Shown here: one piece after another, positions 2,214 through 38,625 of the stretch
Layout of the letters: each line of letters opens with the position of its first letter
Numbering within the stretch: the stretch's first letter is position 1
Origin: a virus
Direction: 5' to 3' (one strand)
Length of the DNA: 41,341 bases
IMG/VR virus record: IMGVR_UViG_3300027851_000059
Coordinates: 1 to 41,341 of that record
Translations under genes and position numbers: made by a program
Notes under the pieces: generated by a model
What the model was told of the DNA's origin: nothing
The model's database searches: none
Seen by the model: the letters and a program-made list of their open reading frames with translations, nothing else

Positions 2214-2705
2214 ATGGAGATGACTGTTCGCCTACCTGTTCGCCCTTCTGTATATCGCTTCTGTATCTCTCTATACGGTACAGCCAGTATCAAGGTCTCA
2301 CATACGGTACCTGCCATCTATTCAGCATTTCAATTATTGCACCACCCAGAGCATTATATTGATAACCGTAGCGAGGTATTCGAAAAAGGTTTGTTCATTG
2401 AACTGATCATACCATCGGAGCTGCGCAAGAGTAATAAGTTCTTCTTAAGCGATAACCACATCAGGGTTTTCAATGGTATGATTGAGGGGCTGCTGTGCGA
2501 ACAGTTGTATCAGTATCTGGACTTAATGACCAGTAGCGGGTTGAAGATTAATGATTCGATTGAGAGCTTTAAGAAGAATTTGGGTTTGGAAGCTGACGAT
2601 TGGGCTTCGGATACGTTAAAGAAAAAATACTACCGTCACAGGCGCGCGCGCGAAAAGACAATTAAATCTTTCGGCAAAACGTCCCCTGAAAAAACGATAA
2701 AATAA
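2214..2705 (+). CDS. Uncharacterised phage protein (163 aa)
   Basis: I chose the ATG at 2214 (MEMTVRLPV) because the longer frame back to 2025 has only a GTG start and runs through the repeat-rich non-coding region. The middle of the protein (EVFEKGLFIELIIPSEL) alternates hydrophobic and charged residues. The C-terminus, about residues 120-163, is rich in Lys/Arg and Asp and resembles a basic tail (YYRHRRAREKTIKS). The stop overlaps the next start by one base (TAATG), so it is translationally coupled to the adhesin-like gene. No family recognised; it could be a DNA-binding regulator or a chaperone for the downstream protein. Confidence 0.55.
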   Translation: MEMTVRLPVRPSVYRFCISLYGTASIKVSHTVPAIYSAFQLLHHPEHYIDNRSEVFEKGLFIELIIPSELRKSNKFFLSDNHIRVFNGMIEGLLCEQLYQYLDLMTSSGLKINDSIESFKKNLGLEADDWASDTLKKKYYRHRRAREKTIKSFGKTSPEKTIK

Positions 2706-4090
2706 TGCCAAACCTAACCAACATACCTACGTTTAAAGCCCTATCTAATATGGGCGGAACGGTTGCCGAATTTGTGTTTGTAGACATAAACGATGTGGTA
2801 TTGGTGCCATCGGCCGTTCAGGGCAAAATAACTGCCGATATTGAATTGGCAGCAGGCAAAGCTTGGTTTTCGGGTACTGGGGTTATTTACGGCAATATCT
2901 TTACCGAGCTGCAGCAACCAGGCGGCAATAAGCCCGATTTTTGGAAGGTATCGTTTAAAGGTAAAATACCGGAGTGGAATAACCTTACTGCAGATCTGTT
3001 CAGTATAATGGTTCATTACCGCTTCATGGTATTGGTTACCGATATGAACGGCATGGAATGGGTACTGGGCCATCCTGATTATGAAGGATTGGAGTTTAGT
3101 AGTGATGGCAGTACCGGAAATGGAGGAAGTGGCTTTAATGGCCACGAATTTGAATTTTATGGTATCATGCCGTACAAGGCGCCCAATTATAAAGGTACTT
3201 ATACTATTGATGCTGGCGACTGCCCGCCAGCTAGCGTTACGGCCGATGGCACTACCGTTGAATTACTTGCCGGTAGCACCAACACACTAGCCGAAGTAAT
3301 TGCCGACTTCACTGACGCTGAGCTATTGGATGCCTTGCAAACCACTGGGCAAGATGCCGCACTTGAAGTAAACGTAACCGCCACCAGCGGCACTATACTT
3401 ACCATACCTATTGATACGACGGTAACTTTGGAGGATGTAATTGATGGCGCGACCGTAGTTGATATTGGCGACGCGGTAGTGGCTGATGGCAGGGCAGGGC
3501 TGGTATTTGAAGAGCTTGCCCTGAGCGTAACCAACCAAGAGGTAGAAGATGCCTTGAGCGCTACGCAACGCAAAGCATTGATAAGCATACCACCGCCAAA
3601 AATTGGCCACCCAGTGGTAATATATAGTGCCAACGACATCGGTACCAATAACCCAGGGCGATTGGTTGACTTTTTTACGTTGGCGGTAAACAACCCCAAT
3701 GGCAACACCAACCGATTTGAAAACATTGGCGCCAACGTATTAATTGATTGGGCCACAGGCTTGTATTGGACACGCGCCTTGCAAGCTACCAACACTTGGG
3801 CTGGGCACAATACAGCGGCAGCTGCGCTTACCCTTGATGGTCTTACCGGCTGGCGCTTGCCGCACGAGTCGGAGTATTATAGCATACTAAACCGATACAG
3901 CGCAACGCCATTGAACCATAGCGGCTTTGGTATAACGCTTGGCGTAAGTACCAACTTCTGGACTGGCGTAGTAAACCCTGGCAACACCGCACAAGCCTAT
4001 GTAATGAATATAACTACCGCCGGTACCGTCATCATGTCGTTTAGCGGCCGCGGCAATAGCAATGGAACTTTTTACTGCAAATCAATCTAA
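2705..4090 (+). CDS. Adhesin-like virion protein with DUF1566/Lcl-type C-type-lectin-like domain
   Basis: The C-terminal part, about residues 345-461, has the pattern of DUF1566/Lcl domains: ATGLYWTRAL, then GWRLPHESEYYSIL, then NFWTG, ending in GTFYCKSI. This fold belongs to the C-type lectin/FGE group often used for receptor binding, including by targets of diversity-generating retroelements. Residues 1-150 form a separate domain with a Gly/Ser linker near 137-145, and 170-290 is Thr/Val/Ala/Asp-rich, probably beta-structured. Likely a tail fibre tip or capsid-surface adhesin. No reverse transcriptase or template repeat was seen, so active diversification is not supported here. Confidence 0.65.
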   Translation: MPNLTNIPTFKALSNMGGTVAEFVFVDINDVVLVPSAVQGKITADIELAAGKAWFSGTGVIYGNIFTELQQPGGNKPDFWKVSFKGKIPEWNNLTADLFSIMVHYRFMVLVTDMNGMEWVLGHPDYEGLEFSSDGSTGNGGSGFNGHEFEFYGIMPYKAPNYKGTYTIDAGDCPPASVTADGTTVELLAGSTNTLAEVIADFTDAELLDALQTTGQDAALEVNVTATSGTILTIPIDTTVTLEDVIDGATVVDIGDAVVADGRAGLVFEELALSVTNQEVEDALSATQRKALISIPPPKIGHPVVIYSANDIGTNNPGRLVDFFTLAVNNPNGNTNRFENIGANVLIDWATGLYWTRALQATNTWAGHNTAAAALTLDGLTGWRLPHESEYYSILNRYSATPLNHSGFGITLGVSTNFWTGVVNPGNTAQAYVMNITTAGTVIMSFSGRGNSNGTFYCKSI

Positions 4091-6800: not shown

Positions 6801-7355
6801 ATGTTGTTAGATATTGCAGGTAACCCAACCGATAACCAAGGCGGCATAGCCTCTTACCTTGGATTGATTTTGCTAACAGATATAGCAACCCATGCTACGC
6901 CGCCAAAATCTAACGGCTCAACCCTAGCTGCCCGAACCCAATGGACTGGCGATGTGATACCGAAAGCCGGTAAGGGCTTTGCCAAGTTTGAGATTGTGCC
7001 ATACAAAGGTGGCGTAAATGCCGAATTGGTGGGCGAAACCTTTGGCAAAAGCTTTAAGCCGATGCTTACTTTCAGTATTGCCGGCACTGACCAGGACAAA
7101 GCTGAGTTTGAGAACGTATACCGCCACGGTAAGTTTGCCGCATTATACCTAGACCGCGAAGAGCGCGCCTACTTGCACGGTACCGCTGCAGCTCCGGTGA
7201 TTATAGAAACCGTGAGCGCCAACTTCGGCGATAGCCCAGAGGCGTTCAAAGGTTCATTATTTACTTTGATGTGCTACGCCAACTACGGACACGCGCCTTA
7301 CGCCGGCGCAATAACCTGGTTGACAGGCACAGGCTCAAGCAGCAGCAGCTTGTAA
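6801..7355 (+). CDS. Structural protein (tail tube or head decoration) with serine-leucine tail
   Basis: A 184-residue protein directly after the capsid gene and flanked by two hairpins, which suggests high, separate expression. The sequence is Gly/Ala/Thr-rich with predicted beta content (KFEIVPYKGGVNAELVGE, then SFKPMLTFSIAGTD). It ends in GTG, five serines and leucine, echoing the capsid tail. It could be a decoration protein or the major tail tube protein; I cannot decide. Its tail, like that of the capsid, lies just before the glycosyltransferase-like genes. Confidence 0.6.
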   Translation: MLLDIAGNPTDNQGGIASYLGLILLTDIATHATPPKSNGSTLAARTQWTGDVIPKAGKGFAKFEIVPYKGGVNAELVGETFGKSFKPMLTFSIAGTDQDKAEFENVYRHGKFAALYLDREERAYLHGTAAAPVIIETVSANFGDSPEAFKGSLFTLMCYANYGHAPYAGAITWLTGTGSSSSSL

Positions 7356-8875: not shown

Positions 8876-9625
8876 ATGCAAAAGCTAGACCTAGTTTACC
8901 CATTGGCAGCTGAGAGCGCCTGGGACCATAACGAGATACGCTACAGCTTGCGTAGCGCCGAAGCTTACTTCCCTATTAACCAAGTGTGGGTTATAGGCCA
9001 TAAGCCTGCATGGCTTACGGGTGTGCAGCACATACCGCATCCTGATCCGTACCCGGTTGGGCAAAACAAGGATGCGAACATGATACAGAAGATATTGCGG
9101 GTATGCTTTGAGCCTAGCCTTACTGCAGAATTTGTGCGAATGAGCGACGACCAGCTCTTTTTAACGCCTTGGATAAAAGAGGTGCAAGGCTTGCCCAGGG
9201 CACAGCACGAAGTAAATGCCAATAGCGACTTTACGAGCAAGGATTACCTGCAGCGGGTGCGCCGAACTTGGCAAGCTCTTGGTGCCCGCAAACTGGATTG
9301 CCTGAAGTATGAAGGGCACATACCTTACTTGTACGATAAGTACGAGTTTGGGCGTATTATGACCAGTTATGCCTACGGTGCCGATTACGGCCTTTGCATC
9401 AATACCCTGTATTTTAATACCCTTTACCCCAAGCCCATAGCGCCCATCGGCGTGGGTGATATCAAAGCGCAGTTTTTTGGACAGCAAAAACACTTTAGCC
9501 GGAAAGACATTTTGAGACGCATGGAGGGCAAATGGTTTATGAACTATAGCGACCCAGGACTGACACCAGAGCTTAAGCAGGTTATTGAGGAGCGGTTCCC
9601 AACGAAGAGCCGTTTTGAGAAATGA
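8876..9625 (+). CDS. Stealth-like sugar(-phosphate) transferase
   Basis: The 249-residue protein resembles the conserved region 2 of Stealth-type hexose-phosphate transferases and related glycosyltransferases: HNEIRYSLRSAEAYFP (18-33), VWVIGHKPAWL (37-47), an Asn/Asp-rich NKDANMIQKI (64-73) and FVRMSDDQLFLTPW (86-99) with an acidic pair D91/D92. Other Stealth regions are missing or diverged. It follows the two GT-A-like genes by 5 nt, so it probably contributes the first or the extending step of the same glycan. Alternative: a divergent GT-A enzyme without phosphotransfer activity. Confidence 0.6.
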   Translation: MQKLDLVYPLAAESAWDHNEIRYSLRSAEAYFPINQVWVIGHKPAWLTGVQHIPHPDPYPVGQNKDANMIQKILRVCFEPSLTAEFVRMSDDQLFLTPWIKEVQGLPRAQHEVNANSDFTSKDYLQRVRRTWQALGARKLDCLKYEGHIPYLYDKYEFGRIMTSYAYGADYGLCINTLYFNTLYPKPIAPIGVGDIKAQFFGQQKHFSRKDILRRMEGKWFMNYSDPGLTPELKQVIEERFPTKSRFEK

Positions 9626-9649
9626 CATAGTTATTGCTATCTTAGCCAT

Positions 9650-9758
9650 CGACTAAACCATTTTACAGCAGTGCAATTGCAACCGCCCTTATTGGCCGGG
9701 GCTTTACCTGTTTATCAGGCTTTTGCACTGCAAATGGTTTAGTCGCTAAAGCCCCGGC
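9650..9758. repeat. Interlocked inverted repeats (pseudoknot topology)
   Basis: CGACTAAACCATTT (9650-9663) pairs perfectly with AAATGGTTTAGTCG (9732-9745), and after a 4-nt bulge GCAGTGCAA (9668-9676) pairs with TTGCACTGC (9723-9731). Inside the loop GCCGGGGCTTTA (9695-9706) pairs with TAAAGCCCCGGC (9747-9758) outside it, and CCTG/CAGG (9707-9710/9716-9719) makes a small hairpin. The order A-B-A'-B' is that of a pseudoknot. The next ATG is at 9762, so the fold could control translation or transcription of that gene. Confidence 0.7.
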
Positions 9759-9761
9759 TCT

Positions 9762-10037
9762 ATGGCGCGCAACACAGACAACGAAAACTTAGGCTTACCC
9801 AGCGATTGGCAGGCGTTCTTTGCGCAAGCAATTGGGGTTTGGTTGGATGGTATGCGACCTGCAGCACTATACAAAGAGGGTGTTGAGCTGTTTACCACCC
9901 AAGAGGTAATAGAGGCACTGGAACCGATACTTGCAGGCATAACCACCAAAGAGGTATATGATTACTTGATTGGCGAGGGCTTTAAGCCTACCAGGGTGGG
10001 AGAAGGGATGTTTTGGTTGGGGGTGAGGATTGATTAG
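9762..10037 (+). CDS. Uncharacterised protein (91 aa) in a structured locus
   Basis: A soluble acidic protein starting MARNTDNENLGLPSDW. Residues 43-66 (ELFTTQEVIEALEPILAGITTKEV) resemble two short helices, and YDYLIGEGFKPTRVGEGMFWLG suggests a small winged or helix-turn-helix-like end, so DNA binding is possible but unproven. Its ATG lies 3 nt after the last strand of the pseudoknot-like repeat, and another structured stretch follows its stop. This isolated arrangement suggests a separately regulated accessory gene. Confidence 0.5.
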   Translation: MARNTDNENLGLPSDWQAFFAQAIGVWLDGMRPAALYKEGVELFTTQEVIEALEPILAGITTKEVYDYLIGEGFKPTRVGEGMFWLGVRID

Positions 10038-10441: not shown

Positions 10442-10477
10442 TGTCCTTTGGTGTGCAATGTTGGTGTGGTATGTTTG
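10442..10477 (+). promoter_or_regulatory. Late promoter copy 2
   Basis: TGTCCTTTGG at 10442 and TATGTTTG at 10470-10477, then GGGT and the ATG at 10482. Spacing equals the other four copies. It decides the start of the next gene in favour of 10482 over 10458. Confidence 0.7.
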
Positions 10478-10764: not shown

Positions 10765-10797
10765 AAAGCCCCATTGCGTAATTGCAGTGGGGCTTTT
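10765..10797 (+). terminator. Strong intrinsic terminator
   Basis: AAAGCCCCATTGC (10765-10777) pairs with GCAGTGGGGCTTT (10784-10796) with one wobble, followed by TT. It separates the single-gene unit from the next late promoter, which begins 4 nt later. Confidence 0.85.
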
Positions 10798-10800
10798 TCG

Positions 10801-10836
10801 TGTCCTTTGGAGTGCAATTGCACCTTGATACCTTAG
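10801..10836 (+). promoter_or_regulatory. Late promoter copy 3 (terminase operon)
   Basis: TGTCCTTTGG at 10801 and TACCTTAG at 10829-10836, then TGGT and the ATG at 10841. A palindrome GTGCAATTGCAC (10812-10823) lies in the spacer, similar to GTGCAATTGCA at 9671 and 14904, and may bind a regulator. Confidence 0.7.
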
Positions 10837-12545: not shown

Positions 12546-13126
12546 CCTTACCCAGTAGCAAACAACCGCTTAGAAGCCAATACCAACGCATTGAGCACTA
12601 CTACGCTACTGGCGATGAAAGCGTATTAAGCTTTGACGATGAAGAAGTTAACAAACGTTGGCTAACGGCCCACGATTTGTTGTTTAAGATAAAAAGTACC
12701 CGGCAGGTTGCCAAAATGCTAGTGGCAAGGTTCCAGATATCGCTGCGCGTTGCTTACCTCGATATCAATTGCGCCCGGGAGCTCTTCGCATTTACTACCC
12801 TTACTCGGAGGGCAGCACTGGCCAAAGTGCAACAAATGGCCGAAGAGGTTTATGAAAAAGCCTTGGTAGCTGGCGACCTTAAAACGGCCGACTCGGTGAT
12901 CGGGCGCTTAGTTAAAGCCTTCCAATTGGATAAGCCCGAAAAAGACATCCTCAACCCAGATGATTTTAGGCCCATTATATATGCCACATACGACCCCAAA
13001 GATTTGAAAGTTGGAGCTGTGAAAGGCGACTTGAGGAAGCGCACCCAAGCTTATTTGGAAAACAAAGCAAAGGCCAAAGAAGAGGATATAGACTTTGAAG
13101 AAGTAGAAAAGCCGACAGATGGTTGA
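12542..13126 (+). CDS. terS: Terminase small subunit
   Basis: The 194-aa protein lies immediately upstream of the large terminase and overlaps it by 8 nt. Residues 40-75 (RWLTAHDLLFKIKSTRQVAKMLVARFQISLRVAYLD) have the HTH-like pattern of small terminases with a following helical region (about 80-125) suited to ring assembly, and a charged, lysine-rich C-terminal tail. It would bind the packaging site on concatemeric DNA. The assignment rests on gene position plus HTH-like sequence. Confidence 0.7.
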   Translation: MTLPSSKQPLRSQYQRIEHYYATGDESVLSFDDEEVNKRWLTAHDLLFKIKSTRQVAKMLVARFQISLRVAYLDINCARELFAFTTLTRRAALAKVQQMAEEVYEKALVAGDLKTADSVIGRLVKAFQLDKPEKDILNPDDFRPIIYATYDPKDLKVGAVKGDLRKRTQAYLENKAKAKEEDIDFEEVEKPTDG

Positions 13127-14780
13127 GCCTAGAAAGATAAAACTTAACAGGCCCCAAATGTTGGCTTACTTGGTTGAGGCCAATACCAGCTATAATGTTT
13201 GGGGCAGGGGCGCGGGTAAAACAACCGGATTGATTGCGCCCAGGATAAATAAGTTGGTTCAAGAATTGCCGGGAAGCCTATCGATAATAGGAGCGGCCAC
13301 TTATGCCCAATTGCTGGAGCGTACCTTGCCACCGGTAGTGGCCGCATTGGAGAGCTGGGGTTGGGTGAGGGATGTGAACTATGTGTTTGGTAAACAACCG
13401 CCCAAGGCTTGGAATTGGCCAAAACCCAAGTTGGCACCCCTACGATGGGAGCACACGTTTACGTTTAATACCGGAACTGTTTTCCAACTGATAAGCCAAG
13501 ACAGACCGGGCAGCGCCAATGGATTGAGTGCCGTAAGCGGTATTTTTGATGAATGTAAATACCTGAACAAAAGAAAGCACGATGAAGAGATAGCGCCTAT
13601 ATTCAGGGGCGCTTTGGAGTTGTATGGAGACCACCATTTGTATGGTGGCCTGCTGTATTGTACGGATATGCCGACTATGCGGGAAGGTATGTGGATATTG
13701 GAGATGAGAGAGCAAATGGATGCCGAACTGATAGAGCTGATATTGGCCAATGTATTCGACATCCAAGAAAACCAACTAAAGCTGCCTGCCGCCAGCAAAA
13801 GCTATCAGAAAGTATTGAAGCGGGAAATAGCCGTGGCACAAAGAGAGCTGAGCCTATTGAGGCGCGGTTGTGTGTACTACAGCGAAGCCAGTGCGATGGA
13901 GAACCTAGCAGCACTGGGTAAGGACTACATAACCCGCATGAGGCGTATGTTGCCGCCTGCAGTGTTTGATACATCGATACTGAACAAAAGGCTTAGGGAT
14001 ATCTCCAGCAAATTCTATGCTGCCCTGAGCGAGAGTGAGCATACTTACCAGGCTAAGGATAACAGCTACTTGGATTCGTTGGGTTTCGACTTTCAGAAGG
14101 TAGAAGGGCAGTATGCCTTTAAGGGTTTGGGCAATAGCAAGGTTGATGCGGATGTGAACCGTATGCAGCCGTTGGATATAGCTATTGACTATGGTGGCCA
14201 CTTTAACTGTATGGCTATAGGCCAAGAGCATGGCATAGGGAATGTGAGAGAGTTCCGTTTCTTAAACGGCATGCATGTATACCCGCCATCTGGATTGGTT
14301 CACCTAGTAGATAAGTTCTGCGACTACTATGCACAACACCGCGCTAGGACTGTATACTACTACTATGACCATACGGCCACTGGCCTTAATGCTGCCAGTA
14401 AGCCATTTAAGGATGTAGTGATAGAGCAGTTCAGGAAGCGCGGCTGGGAAGTGATAGAGATGTATATGGGGCATGCGCCCTACCATGAGGATAAGCACCA
14501 GTTTTGGCACACTGCACTACTAGAGCAGAGCGATGATTTGCCTAGCTTTAGATGGAACAGGGATAACTGTGATGATATGCTAACGAGCATGCAAGATGCC
14601 GGTATCAAGCAGGGGCGCAATGGTTTCCAAAAGGATAAGGCCAGTGAGGACCCGAAGAAAGGTATATCGCAACAACACGCCACCCACTACAGCGATGCGG
14701 TTGATCAGCTGGCATGGGGCAAGTATCGTGCAGCCTATGCAGGCAAAGGCCATGACATGTTCGGTGTTGTGGTTATGTAA
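13119..14780 (+). CDS. terL: Terminase large subunit
   Basis: Packaging motor ATPase and nuclease, 553 aa. Walker A WGRGAGKTT lies at 28-36 and the Walker B GIFDE at 141-145 with the catalytic Glu145. The RNase H-like nuclease domain shows IAIDYGGHFN near residue 355 (first acidic residue), YYYDHTATG near 415 and HYSDAVDQLAWG near 525 (last acidic residues). Length and motif order are typical of complete large terminases. It ends the operon; the following 400 nt are non-coding. Confidence 0.92.
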   Translation: MVEPRKIKLNRPQMLAYLVEANTSYNVWGRGAGKTTGLIAPRINKLVQELPGSLSIIGAATYAQLLERTLPPVVAALESWGWVRDVNYVFGKQPPKAWNWPKPKLAPLRWEHTFTFNTGTVFQLISQDRPGSANGLSAVSGIFDECKYLNKRKHDEEIAPIFRGALELYGDHHLYGGLLYCTDMPTMREGMWILEMREQMDAELIELILANVFDIQENQLKLPAASKSYQKVLKREIAVAQRELSLLRRGCVYYSEASAMENLAALGKDYITRMRRMLPPAVFDTSILNKRLRDISSKFYAALSESEHTYQAKDNSYLDSLGFDFQKVEGQYAFKGLGNSKVDADVNRMQPLDIAIDYGGHFNCMAIGQEHGIGNVREFRFLNGMHVYPPSGLVHLVDKFCDYYAQHRARTVYYYYDHTATGLNAASKPFKDVVIEQFRKRGWEVIEMYMGHAPYHEDKHQFWHTALLEQSDDLPSFRWNRDNCDDMLTSMQDAGIKQGRNGFQKDKASEDPKKGISQQHATHYSDAVDQLAWGKYRAAYAGKGHDMFGVVVM

Positions 14781-15124
14781 GCAATGTACAAATGTTTTAT
14801 TGGAATAAGAATTGGCAAGAGACTGGTGTTGCTAGGTTTTTGCCAATTCTCGAGGCTACCTAATGGGGGGGGTCGTATTTAATATATCGTAATTCGTTAG
14901 GGGTGCAATTGCAGTTTTTAATAGGGCTTGTGGTGCCTGTCTGCCCGAGCGTGCAATGTTTCAAAAATGAGACCCCACGCATTTCGTTGGGGTACAGTCA
15001 TATATACATAACATACACCGCACAGATGTTGTAAATGCCGTCACATTATTTAATAATAAATCCATAACTAGTTGGATTTCAGTTTATTAAATTGCAATTT
15101 ATCCTAATTTTAGTTGCTTAAAAA
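14781..15124. other. Non-coding stretch with hairpins, after terL
   Basis: No convincing gene. AGAATTGGCAA (14808-14818) and TTGCCAATTCT (14840-14850) make a perfect 11-bp stem with a 21-nt loop. A G8 run lies at 14865-14872, GTGCAATTGCA near 14904, ACCCCA/TGGGGT at 14972-14977/14988-14993, and a perfect 14-bp palindrome TAAATTGCAATTTA at 15088-15101 just upstream of the promoter at 15125. Confidence 0.55.
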
Positions 15125-31624: not shown

Positions 31625-31658
31625 GCCCCTATACTTGCAAAAGTGGTAGGGGCTTTTT
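31625..31658 (+). terminator. Strong intrinsic terminator after the late region
   Basis: GCCCCTA (31625-31631) pairs with TAGGGGC (31647-31653) around a 15-nt loop, followed by five T. Confidence 0.88.
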
Positions 31659-31665
31659 ACTTTTA

Positions 31666-31807
31666 CCCCCGACACAGATTACCTAGTACCTATATAACGC
31701 GGTTTAGTCACTGAGATTTATTAAGAACCGCCCCCACGAGCCCTAAGAAGGGTATAGTCTCTTAGCGTTATGCGCTAGGTGTTCTGTGTCAGCGTGGGGG
31801 CCTTTTT
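31666..31807 (+). promoter_or_regulatory. Structured leader with alternative folds
   Basis: GACACAG (31671-31677) pairs with CTGTGTC (31784-31790), ACCTAG (31681-31686) with CTAGGT (31775-31780) and ATAACGC (31694-31700) with GCGTTAT (31765-31771), a nested long stem; CCCT/AGGG forms an AAGA tetraloop hairpin (31741-31752). A second possibility pairs CCCCCACG (31731-31738) with CGTGGGGG (31793-31800), immediately followed by CCTTTTT, an intrinsic terminator. The two overlap in geometry, so a switch-like attenuator for gene 31833 is possible. Not a riboswitch class I recognise. Confidence 0.45.
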
Positions 31808-31832
31808 ATTTAATCAACCCAAAACCGTGACT

Positions 31833-32240
31833 ATGACACAGAACACGAACAAAACCCAAAAGCAAGAGGCCAAGTTTGCAAAAGCTATGCAAGAGGCCTT
31901 GATTTACCGACTGGAGCAACTATCCCCAAACAGTAGCTTCAAAGACCTTGAAAAAATCTTGAAAGGCCAAGCCACTGGCCGCGATGCCGGAGACTTCGGC
32001 GACTACGTAAACCTTGTAGAAACGGTATTTGAACCCTACAACGATGCGATAGTAGAAACCGTAAAACACGAAGGCTCTGCAGCCGAAGTGGGGCTTACCA
32101 TATCTAAAGCGGTATTTGCTGATATGCTCAGCGGCATGGAAGTTGGCCATGGCAGCGTATGGAACGACCAGATAAACCTGCGCGCACTTACTAAAGTACT
32201 TGAACTACTGGACAGGATCCATTACATCGATAAAGACTAA
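31833..32240 (+). CDS. Uncharacterised protein (135 aa)
   Basis: I chose the ATG at 31833 (MTQNTNKTQK), since the longer frame from 31779 would run back into the structured leader. The protein is helical: NKTQKQEAKFAKAMQEALIYRLEQL, then SFKDLEKILKG, and a mixed second half ending LLDRIHYIDKD. The leader above may attenuate its expression. It shares a terminator with the convergent integrase. Unknown function; a regulator of lysogeny or integration is possible from position. Confidence 0.55.
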   Translation: MTQNTNKTQKQEAKFAKAMQEALIYRLEQLSPNSSFKDLEKILKGQATGRDAGDFGDYVNLVETVFEPYNDAIVETVKHEGSAAEVGLTISKAVFADMLSGMEVGHGSVWNDQINLRALTKVLELLDRIHYIDKD

Positions 32241-36573: not shown

Positions 36574-37590
36574 ATGATTTATAGGTTAACACTCGAAGAG
36601 GCTACAGCTGCAGCAGTAGCAAAAGGCTTTGAAAGCTATACTGTTATCAAGGGTATTAGAAGCTATAAAGTAATCGAAGGCATTCACGACCATCCAATTG
36701 GAGGAACCTTGGTATATCAGTTTGGAACTAAAGACAAGCCACAGAAAGCAGAAATACGCCAAGTCGATAAGCTGTATATCACAGAAGGTGAAATGATGGC
36801 AAATACCTTAATGTCTCTAGATAAACCAATAGGAATCACGCCTGGCAATATCATTTACGAGTTGCGCATAATGGAGCTGCAGAGTGCCATTGATAGGTAC
36901 GAACTTGCCAACATGCCTTACCCAATAATATGGCGTTACGAGCTACTGCAGGTTAAAGGATTATTAGCGTTATTGCAAGCAATTCAAACACCTGAGGCAA
37001 TAGTTAATCCTATTCCTCCATCAGATCCAATTTCGCCTGCAGCTGAAATTACTCCAGCAATTGAACCTGTAATTGCCGCCGAACCGTCGCCCATCACAGC
37101 CACCGAAACGGATGAAGAAAGTAAAAAGGCCAGGCAAAAGGTATATAAGGACCGCTGGCGCGAGAAAAACAAGAACCGCATAGCCCAAGCCCAAAGCGAG
37201 GAATCAATTATTGGACCACCGGCCCTAAAGCGCACTAGTCCACAGAGCCAGCCCACTCTAGCAACAAATAATGTAATAGAGGAAGATGAAGACTATACTG
37301 AAGCCGAAGCTTTGGAGCTGGAGCCGATGGAAGATATTGACGATAAAGATTTCAAGCCGCAGCCTACATTGGCCAAGCGCGATACCAAGCCAGTAATAAA
37401 AGTAGATGAGGCAAACCCAGACGATTATGTGGCCGTGCCCTCACCGGTGTTTCGGAAAACAGATGATAACCATCCGCTTTTGCGAAACCTATCGCCCGAA
37501 ATAAGGGCAAAAACGCATGTAGTACCCAAATTAAGCAAAGAAGAAATGGCACTGGCCATAGCAAGAGCCAAGCAAATCAGCCGCAAATAA
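36574..37590 (+). CDS. Modular early protein with C-terminal RAKT...SKEEM motif (338 aa)
   Basis: Residues 1-130 form a globular part (YRLTLEEATAAAVAKGFESY and ELRIMELQSAIDRYELANMPYPIIWRYELLQVKGLL). A Pro/Ala/Glu-rich linker (140-180), a basic helix (KARQKVYKDRWREKNKNRI), an acidic stretch (EEDEDYTEAEALELEPMEDIDDKD) and a C-terminal motif (about 305-335) follow. The motif, SPEIRAKTHVVPKLSKEEM, recurs almost unchanged in the 65-aa protein at 38428 on the other side of the PP-loop gene, which suggests a docking peptide for a common partner. Confidence 0.5.
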   Translation: MIYRLTLEEATAAAVAKGFESYTVIKGIRSYKVIEGIHDHPIGGTLVYQFGTKDKPQKAEIRQVDKLYITEGEMMANTLMSLDKPIGITPGNIIYELRIMELQSAIDRYELANMPYPIIWRYELLQVKGLLALLQAIQTPEAIVNPIPPSDPISPAAEITPAIEPVIAAEPSPITATETDEESKKARQKVYKDRWREKNKNRIAQAQSEESIIGPPALKRTSPQSQPTLATNNVIEEDEDYTEAEALELEPMEDIDDKDFKPQPTLAKRDTKPVIKVDEANPDDYVAVPSPVFRKTDDNHPLLRNLSPEIRAKTHVVPKLSKEEMALAIARAKQISRK

Positions 37591-38438: not shown

Positions 38439-38625
38439 AACAAACAAACCCCTAAACGAATCACCCACACCCCAACCGATGGCGGAGGTAGTAAGCAAGC
38501 TGCACCCCGATTTGCGGGCTAAAACGCGCATAATGCCCAAGGTGAGCAAAGAAGAAATGGAAGCCGCCATACTTAAAGCCAACAAAAGCCTAGGCAAGTG
38601 CGGAGGGCACACCACCAGATATTGA
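38428..38625 (+). CDS. Short RAKT...SKEEM motif protein (65 aa)
   Basis: Starts MPIKTNKPLNE and has a disordered N-terminus. Residues 25-55 (LHPDLRAKTRIMPKVSKEEM, then EAAILKANKSL) repeat the C-terminus of the protein at 36574: Leu-x-Pro-x-x-Arg-Ala-Lys-Thr-x-x-x-Pro-Lys-x-Ser-Lys-Glu-Glu-Met-x-x-Ala-Ile. It seems to be a free copy of that module. It overlaps the PP-loop gene and so may be a subunit or adaptor for it. Confidence 0.5.
   Translation: MPIKTNKPLNESPTPQPMAEVVSKLHPDLRAKTRIMPKVSKEEMEAAILKANKSLGKCGGHTTRY

Follow-up and report, generated by a model that had tools for sequence, protein, structure and literature searches.

What are two long inverted repeats, threaded through one another and crowded against a start codon, doing at the head of a phage operon? 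The locus lies in a virus record with tailed-phage gene order (we call the whole analysed stretch of 41,341 nucleotides the window), whose terminase (13119-14780) has relatives in Bacteroidota phages and is closest to that of Mea-Yong924-1, a phage recorded from Microcystis. Our answer, to which we would give a probability of roughly 0.6, is that the repeats form a leader that controls translation initiation through access to the start site. This function is inferred, and we have no expression, probing or mutational data that bear on it.

Anatomy and setting of the leader

A reading made from sequence alone had proposed here a 14+9-bp stem and a 12-bp stem, with a 4-nt bulge, ahead of an ATG at 9762, and all of these coordinates held (Table 1). 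It had also claimed that the arrangement exceeds chance, which held as well: the interlocked repeats are real and far above chance, scoring 39 against a best of 33 in dinucleotide-preserving shuffles of the whole window (0/300 reach 39), with both arms at least 10 bp long in just one of the 300. In a scan for interlocked pairs across 93 sequences, made up of the window and the loci that we fetched, this element ranks first. Its anatomy is shown: the stems follow the order A-B-A'-B', which is the topology of a pseudoknot, A' and B' lie 1 nt apart (C9746), B' spans positions -15 to -4 relative to the start, and the small hairpin after B has a 4-bp stem (9707-9710/9716-9719), a hairpin at this position being common in relatives of the leader. 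We are highly confident of the pseudoknot structure, which is well supported; what it does is an inference. The further claim that this is not a simple terminator also held, there being no U-run after B' in this copy. Absent from the sequence-only reading were the promoter, the extent of the whole leader, the small 4-bp hairpin, a second copy in the window and a copy of arm A at the start codon of relatives.

Bacteroidota promoters have the consensus -33 TTTG / -7 TAnnTTTG (PMC7366714), and the TTTG-N20-TATCTTAG found upstream of A resembles it. Since the box is centred at -7, transcription is predicted to start at about 9649-9650, on the first base of arm A, and because the promoter ends 4 nt ahead of stem A, the pseudoknot would make up the entire 5' leader (~112 nt) of the packaging-operon mRNA; the start itself is inferred only. 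The element sits between the capsid-side genes, which end with a Stealth-like protein (8876-9625), and the run of genes leading to the terminase. That packaging operon is opened by a 91-aa protein, for which AlphaFold2 gives a mean pLDDT of 86.7 and a model that predicts a winged helix; Foldseek support is weak, with no match at E<0.001, and many of the matches are winged-helix regulators such as Fur/PerR. Autoregulation by this protein is conceivable, and no binding data exist.

Table 1. Coordinates of the 9650 leader, its first gene and the second leader of the window
Feature	Positions	Strand	Detail and basis
-33 promoter box TTTG	9614..9617	+	20 nt ahead of -7 box; sequence and PMC7366714 consensus
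-7 promoter box TATCTTAG	9638..9645	+	consensus TAnnTTTG; ends 4 nt ahead of stem A
Arm A, outer	9650..9663	+	14 bp, CGACTAAACCATTT, pairs with 9732-9745
Bulge TACA in stem A	9664..9667	+	4 nt, read from sequence
Arm A, inner	9668..9676	+	9 bp, GCAGTGCAA, pairs with 9723-9731
Arm B	9695..9706	+	12 bp, GCCGGGGCTTTA, pairs with 9747-9758
Small hairpin between B and A'	9707..9719	+	CCTG-TTTAT-CAGG
Arm A', inner	9723..9731	+	sequence
Arm A', outer	9732..9745	+	sequence
Arm B'	9747..9758	+	3 nt between arm end and ATG
First gene after leader, 91-aa protein	9762..10037	+	family search; divergent family, homologues at same place in other phages
Terminator-like hairpin (intrinsic type) and T-run upstream of second leader	31625..31658	+	sequence
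-7 box TACTTTTA of second leader	31658..31665	+	promoter-anchored scan
Second interlocked leader	31671..31801	+	A 31671-31678/31783-31790
Second leader, other stems	inner A 31682-31686/31775-31779; B 31730-31738/31793-31801	+	
A'' (start-codon copy of A) of second leader	31835..31846	+	GACACAGAACAC, overlaps ATG at 31833

Relatives of the leader in other phages

Is the structure conserved? Close relatives proved hard to find: a nucleotide search of phage records with the 9650 region gave no match, IMG/VR close-protein searches with the 91-aa, upstream and terminase proteins gave either no relative or a false one (L002, rejected as a membrane protein with only TTKEVYDY in common with the query), and the terminase pair of L003 and L091, used as query, brought in nothing further. 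A contig scan with the alignment of the 91-aa family was unproductive, the family being too diverse, 395 Bacteroidota genomes held only the known member plus one weak chance match, and a DNA pattern of the GCCTGGACT/AGTCCAGGC arms uncovered no further leaders by inspection. No close relative of the window phage was found, and so pair-by-pair covariation cannot be assessed on the exact 9650 sequence.

More distant loci were gathered by terminase profiles (80 viral and 3 genomic, with more added later), and a small-protein profile picked out 15 ORFs in them, which were aligned, with L105 added by eye. In 12 loci (the window, L003, L091, L022, L046, L054, L055, L053, L057, L042, L063 and L105) the family gene is preceded by an A-B-A'-B' leader, and the sequences of these leaders are unrelated; L053 and L055 are nearly identical, leaving 11 independent cases. 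All 12 carry TAnnTTTG or a near match (TATATTTA in L063, TATCTTCG in L042) 1-5 nt ahead of arm A. Mea-Yong924-1 (L003), whose terminase is 37% identical to that of the window, has a 90-aa gene at the same place, behind a leader of the same topology and different sequence (A 11535-11549/11603-11617, B 11557-11566/11619-11628, ATG 11631). A strict scan scores 11 of the 12 at 24 or above, against a background of 15/2833 ORF starts in all loci, many of which are the family members themselves, while shuffled leaders reach even 20 only once in 2400. That the topology is conserved is therefore shown, and across orthologous leaders the stems covary by wholesale replacement. The close relatives L003 and L091 differ by compensated changes in A (pair 1 from A-U to U-A, pair 15 from G-C to A-U).

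The family is not uniform in this respect: in L064 the leader sits ahead of the gene preceding the family gene, in L056 the family gene has a different interlocked fold, and in L008, a Porphyromonas phage, it lies inside an operon without a leader. The background scan also picked up another ORF start, at 15517 in L026, with a strong interlocked leader (score 37), and interlocked matches in Leef_1 (L005 7171-7346) were rejected as lying in a repeat-rich A+T region. As a separate matter, L003 (MZ447863.1) is listed as a Microcystis phage, but in its promoters, its leader and the relatives of its terminase it resembles Bacteroidota phages; its true host may be a Bacteroidota bacterium in the culture.

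The leaders also belong to a wider class, which we define by a TAnnTTTG-like box 1-5 nt before A, the order A-B-(hairpin)-A'-B', an A'-B' gap of 0-10 nt and an ATG soon after B', and the 9650 leader meets this definition in its box, topology, gap and ATG position. A promoter-anchored scan of all loci at a score of at least 26 found 22 matches on the sense strand but only 2 on the opposite one, and in the first locus set scrambled promoter motifs gave 1-3 matches at 28 or above against 14 with the real motif. Class members also precede other, unrelated genes. Among them are the second window copy and leaders in Cellulophaga phage Ingeline_1 (L007) and in Flavobacterium phage laban6-1 (L006). 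In most of them only a few bases separate B from a small hairpin, whose loop is UGNRAG-like in several (for example L007, L051, L058, L064).

Nothing in the window matched Rfam release 15 at curated thresholds, the 9650 element gave only chance-level matches far under gathering scores when the threshold was relaxed, and no leader was matched in a scan of 13 related loci. A side product of the Rfam work was a Flavo-1 RNA, marginally over threshold, at 6930-6994 (-) of the phage contig L058. The literature that we searched, mostly without subscription papers, held nothing fitting on pseudoknot leaders of Bacteroidota phages. As at least ten other phages preserve the fold in unrelated sequence, we take this to be a real and so far undescribed RNA element, of a kind already familiar in that leader RNAs gating translation are known.

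The best alignable material is a group that we call subclass II, present in 27 viral contigs with the shared core CCGTGTGGAGCGTTAATGC and with related copies in Bacteroides phage BS-TP3 and in Porphyromonas phages. Across 23 aligned leaders its covariation is 0.332 against 0.138 in shuffles (0/500 reach it), with both stems strong, and 91.7% of cells are paired against 80.1% when shuffled and 37-46% when the structure is slid along. Five adjacent A positions vary over two to four pair types without a single unpaired cell, and in the outer B helix both sides change in 6/7 pairs. The structure played no part in making the alignment, although it was itself read from one of the aligned sequences. 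Two observations can be set beside these: leaders of this group (L170, L172, L164-L190) contain a terminator-like hairpin, and the small phage genes behind them are varied, some of them looking by eye like antirepressor genes of the Rha and AntA types.

Does the element act as RNA or as DNA? At transition-type positions of the A stem that depart from Watson-Crick pairing, read on the sense strand over all elements, G-U outnumbers A-C by 39 to 10. Kinship within subclass II inflates this count, and without leaders L164-L185 (L047, L086 and L128 still included) it stands at 14 to 2. The sense-strand signature is shown, and since an inverted repeat working at the DNA level has no reason to favour G-U over A-C, we consider it likely that the leader acts as RNA. 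The sequence-only reading had named two outcomes that would refute it. The first, a lack of covariation in homologues, was checked: the topology is kept with unrelated sequence, close relatives compensate, and the alignable subclass II covaries in both stems. The second, a DNA-level role, is disfavoured by the G-U excess. Its suggestion that ribosome access depends on the fold is supported by the structure, the effect itself still being inferred.

Probable control of start-codon access and its rivals

How might such a leader work? In many class members a second copy of A's outer portion (A'') lies at the start codon, which makes A' complementary to both copies; examples are L027 (TGCTAACACA / ATGCTAACACA), L064 (ATGCGAACCGA), L007 (TGCAAAGCA) and L069 (TGTCTAAAA). 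Permutation of partners shows the match to be specific: at least 7 nt are shared in 14/27 elements, against a permuted mean of 2.5 and maximum of 8 (5000 permutations), and in subclass II in 15 of 17 distinct guides (permuted mean 1.3, maximum 8). Most members that precede other genes have A''. The 9650 leader is without it, its A' binding the start region at -3.5 kcal/mol and 75% of mismatched partners binding equally or better, and most leaders of the 91-aa gene family lack it too; L054 has a clear A'' and L022 an imperfect one, and these two link the forms with and without it. In the second leader of the window A'' is exactly complementary to A' (31779-31790) over 12 nt, and the duplex of A' with the start codon (-20.4 kcal/mol) rivals that of A with A' (-18.3 over 14 nt); within the window genome, two-state pairing is clearest here (31671-31846).

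Bacteroidota have no Shine-Dalgarno sequences and tune initiation through the structure that surrounds the start codon (PMC6847099, PMC3155529). In our model, transcription would begin at arm A and the nascent RNA would fold into the large pseudoknot, with its 5' end captured by A' and with B', directly ahead of the start codon, held by B within the loop of A; the fold would then set how open the start-codon region is to the ribosome. In members with A'' the pseudoknot would be the open state, with the start codon free, and A'-A'' pairing the closed and blocked one. The 9650 copy, because A'' is missing there, would have to act through B' alone (-15 to -4). The direction of control is inferred only, and so is the trigger that flips the states, for which a protein, 5'-end processing or folding kinetics are candidates. 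Removal of A in silico leads folding to close the start region in some members only, so that a simple loss-of-A model is not general and a general sensor of 5' integrity is not established.

A bolder reading, which we would place a little short of even odds, is that of a regulatory RNA class found throughout Bacteroidota phages: at its 5' end each transcript mimics the start-codon region of its own gene, an internal guide (A') pairs with either copy and the pseudoknot locks the open state. Guides would differ from copy to copy like an address of their own, and the 9650 leader would be a derived, B'-only form. If this were true, only a transcript whose 5' end is intact and correctly started would be licensed for translation. 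The timing and gating of translation in Bacteroidota phages are largely unknown, and the leader offers a testable control element: a covarying architecture absent from Rfam and found in named phages (Ingeline_1, laban6-1, BS-TP3), with a possible use as a compact translational switch in tools for Bacteroides.

What else could the leader be? The rival that survives best, and which remains possible, is an mRNA stabiliser, in which a 5' end buried in a long, pseudoknot-closed helix would block 5'-dependent decay of the long late transcript and any effect on translation would be secondary. In its favour, nearly every copy has only 1-5 nt between the -7 box and arm A, which would leave the 5' terminus paired at the A/B junction, and the window copy has a long, perfect stem without a start-codon copy; however, it leaves unexplained both the match of A' to the start-codon region in many members and the ending of B' a few nt from the ATG.

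A protein-binding operator RNA, by which the operon would be turned down or up when a protein of phage or host origin (the winged-helix product, for example) binds the pseudoknot, seems to us unlikely. It is favoured by the fact that all 12 orthologous leaders are followed by a member of one family of small proteins predicted to bind nucleic acid, and by the phage precedent of T4 gene 32 (PMC3014915), but unrelated genes share the architecture and a single phage can carry two copies whose stems are different. It is compatible with control of start-site access, as the trigger.

Transcriptional control, whether by an attenuator (B-B' plus a U-run) or by a put-like RNA that causes antitermination in the late operon, is also improbable. 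The leader does lie at the very start of the late operon, B' is followed by 4-6 T in several relatives and there is the terminator-like hairpin inside the subclass II leader. Against this, no U-run is present in the 9650 copy (TCTATGG), L003, L091 or L105, the loops greatly exceed the length that an intrinsic terminator allows, and the downstream terminator-like hairpin at 10765-10796 has promoter-like sequence behind it. At 9650 the B stem has a loop of 40 nt before its TCTATGG and stem A is followed by CTAAAGCC, so that the short-loop G+C hairpin with an immediate U-run, by which an intrinsic terminator is recognised, is absent.

Least plausible of these by far is a DNA-level operator, recombination site or invertible segment: promoter-adjacent inverted repeats do serve promoter inversion in Bacteroides (PMC8748976) and the arms are long and perfect, but no TAnnTTTG lies between them on either strand, the promoter box being outside and upstream of A, both interlocked stems covary, the element keeps a fixed position relative to the start site and the ATG, the 39:10 ratio counts against it, and the two copies that differ in sequence within one phage (L170, L172) argue against a single shared DNA operator. 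HDV-type and other ribozymes were rejected, since their extra elements would not fit between A' and B' and Rfam gave no match, as was a frameshift signal (the element lies ahead of the ATG, after a finished gene), and splicing as an account of the A/A'' repeats was set aside since the copies sit at a promoter.

Known systems and neighbouring sequences

Among described systems, the timP mRNA of the timPR type I toxin-antitoxin (PMC11228461) is similar in having mutually exclusive folds, of which the pseudoknot form is translated and the other hides the ribosome binding site. It differs in topology, hosts and genes, and in being controlled by an antisense RNA, whereas in the phage family the alternative pairing uses the leader's own 5'-end copy at the start codon, a copy that the 9650 leader does not have. 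T4 gene 32 (PMC3014915) likewise has a pseudoknot in a phage mRNA leader upstream of the start codon; that pseudoknot is small, lies 67 nt upstream and nucleates gp32 binding, whereas at 9650 the two stems, 23 and 12 bp long, span the leader from end to end and leave only 3 nt ahead of the ATG. In purely structural terms our locus is of the T4 gene 32 type, as a pseudoknot heads the mRNA for a protein that is predicted to be a winged helix; translational repression by binding is not shown. In the AapA3 toxin mRNA (PMC6733600) alternative pairings of the start region also decide translation, but there transient, metastable hairpins hide a Shine-Dalgarno sequence, which the 9650 leader lacks, and no pseudoknot lock is involved. 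The put RNAs of phage HK022 are structured antitermination RNAs near the start of a phage transcript, and they differ in being two simple hairpins that act on RNA polymerase, without an ATG-adjacent pseudoknot.

Several other parts of the window deserve a mention. The terminator-like hairpin at 10765-10796 is followed by a promoter-like sequence of its own, and TCCTTTGGNGTGCAAT occurs twice before small genes (10444-10459 and 10803-10818), with a weaker third copy at 14894; the copy at 10803-10818, which follows that hairpin, could represent a promoter together with a small hairpin leader. Related repeats, both direct and inverted (TGTGCATTTGTGC / TGCACAAATGCACAA), are clustered at 1886-2101 and might be iterons or an operator cluster. 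The gene at 2705-4090 encodes an Lcl_C-domain protein, a fold known among targets of diversity-generating retroelements, and no reverse transcriptase was recognised in the window, where no dedicated search was made. Finally, 37495-37576 and 38506-38587 form an imperfect duplication of 82 nt, 72% identical.
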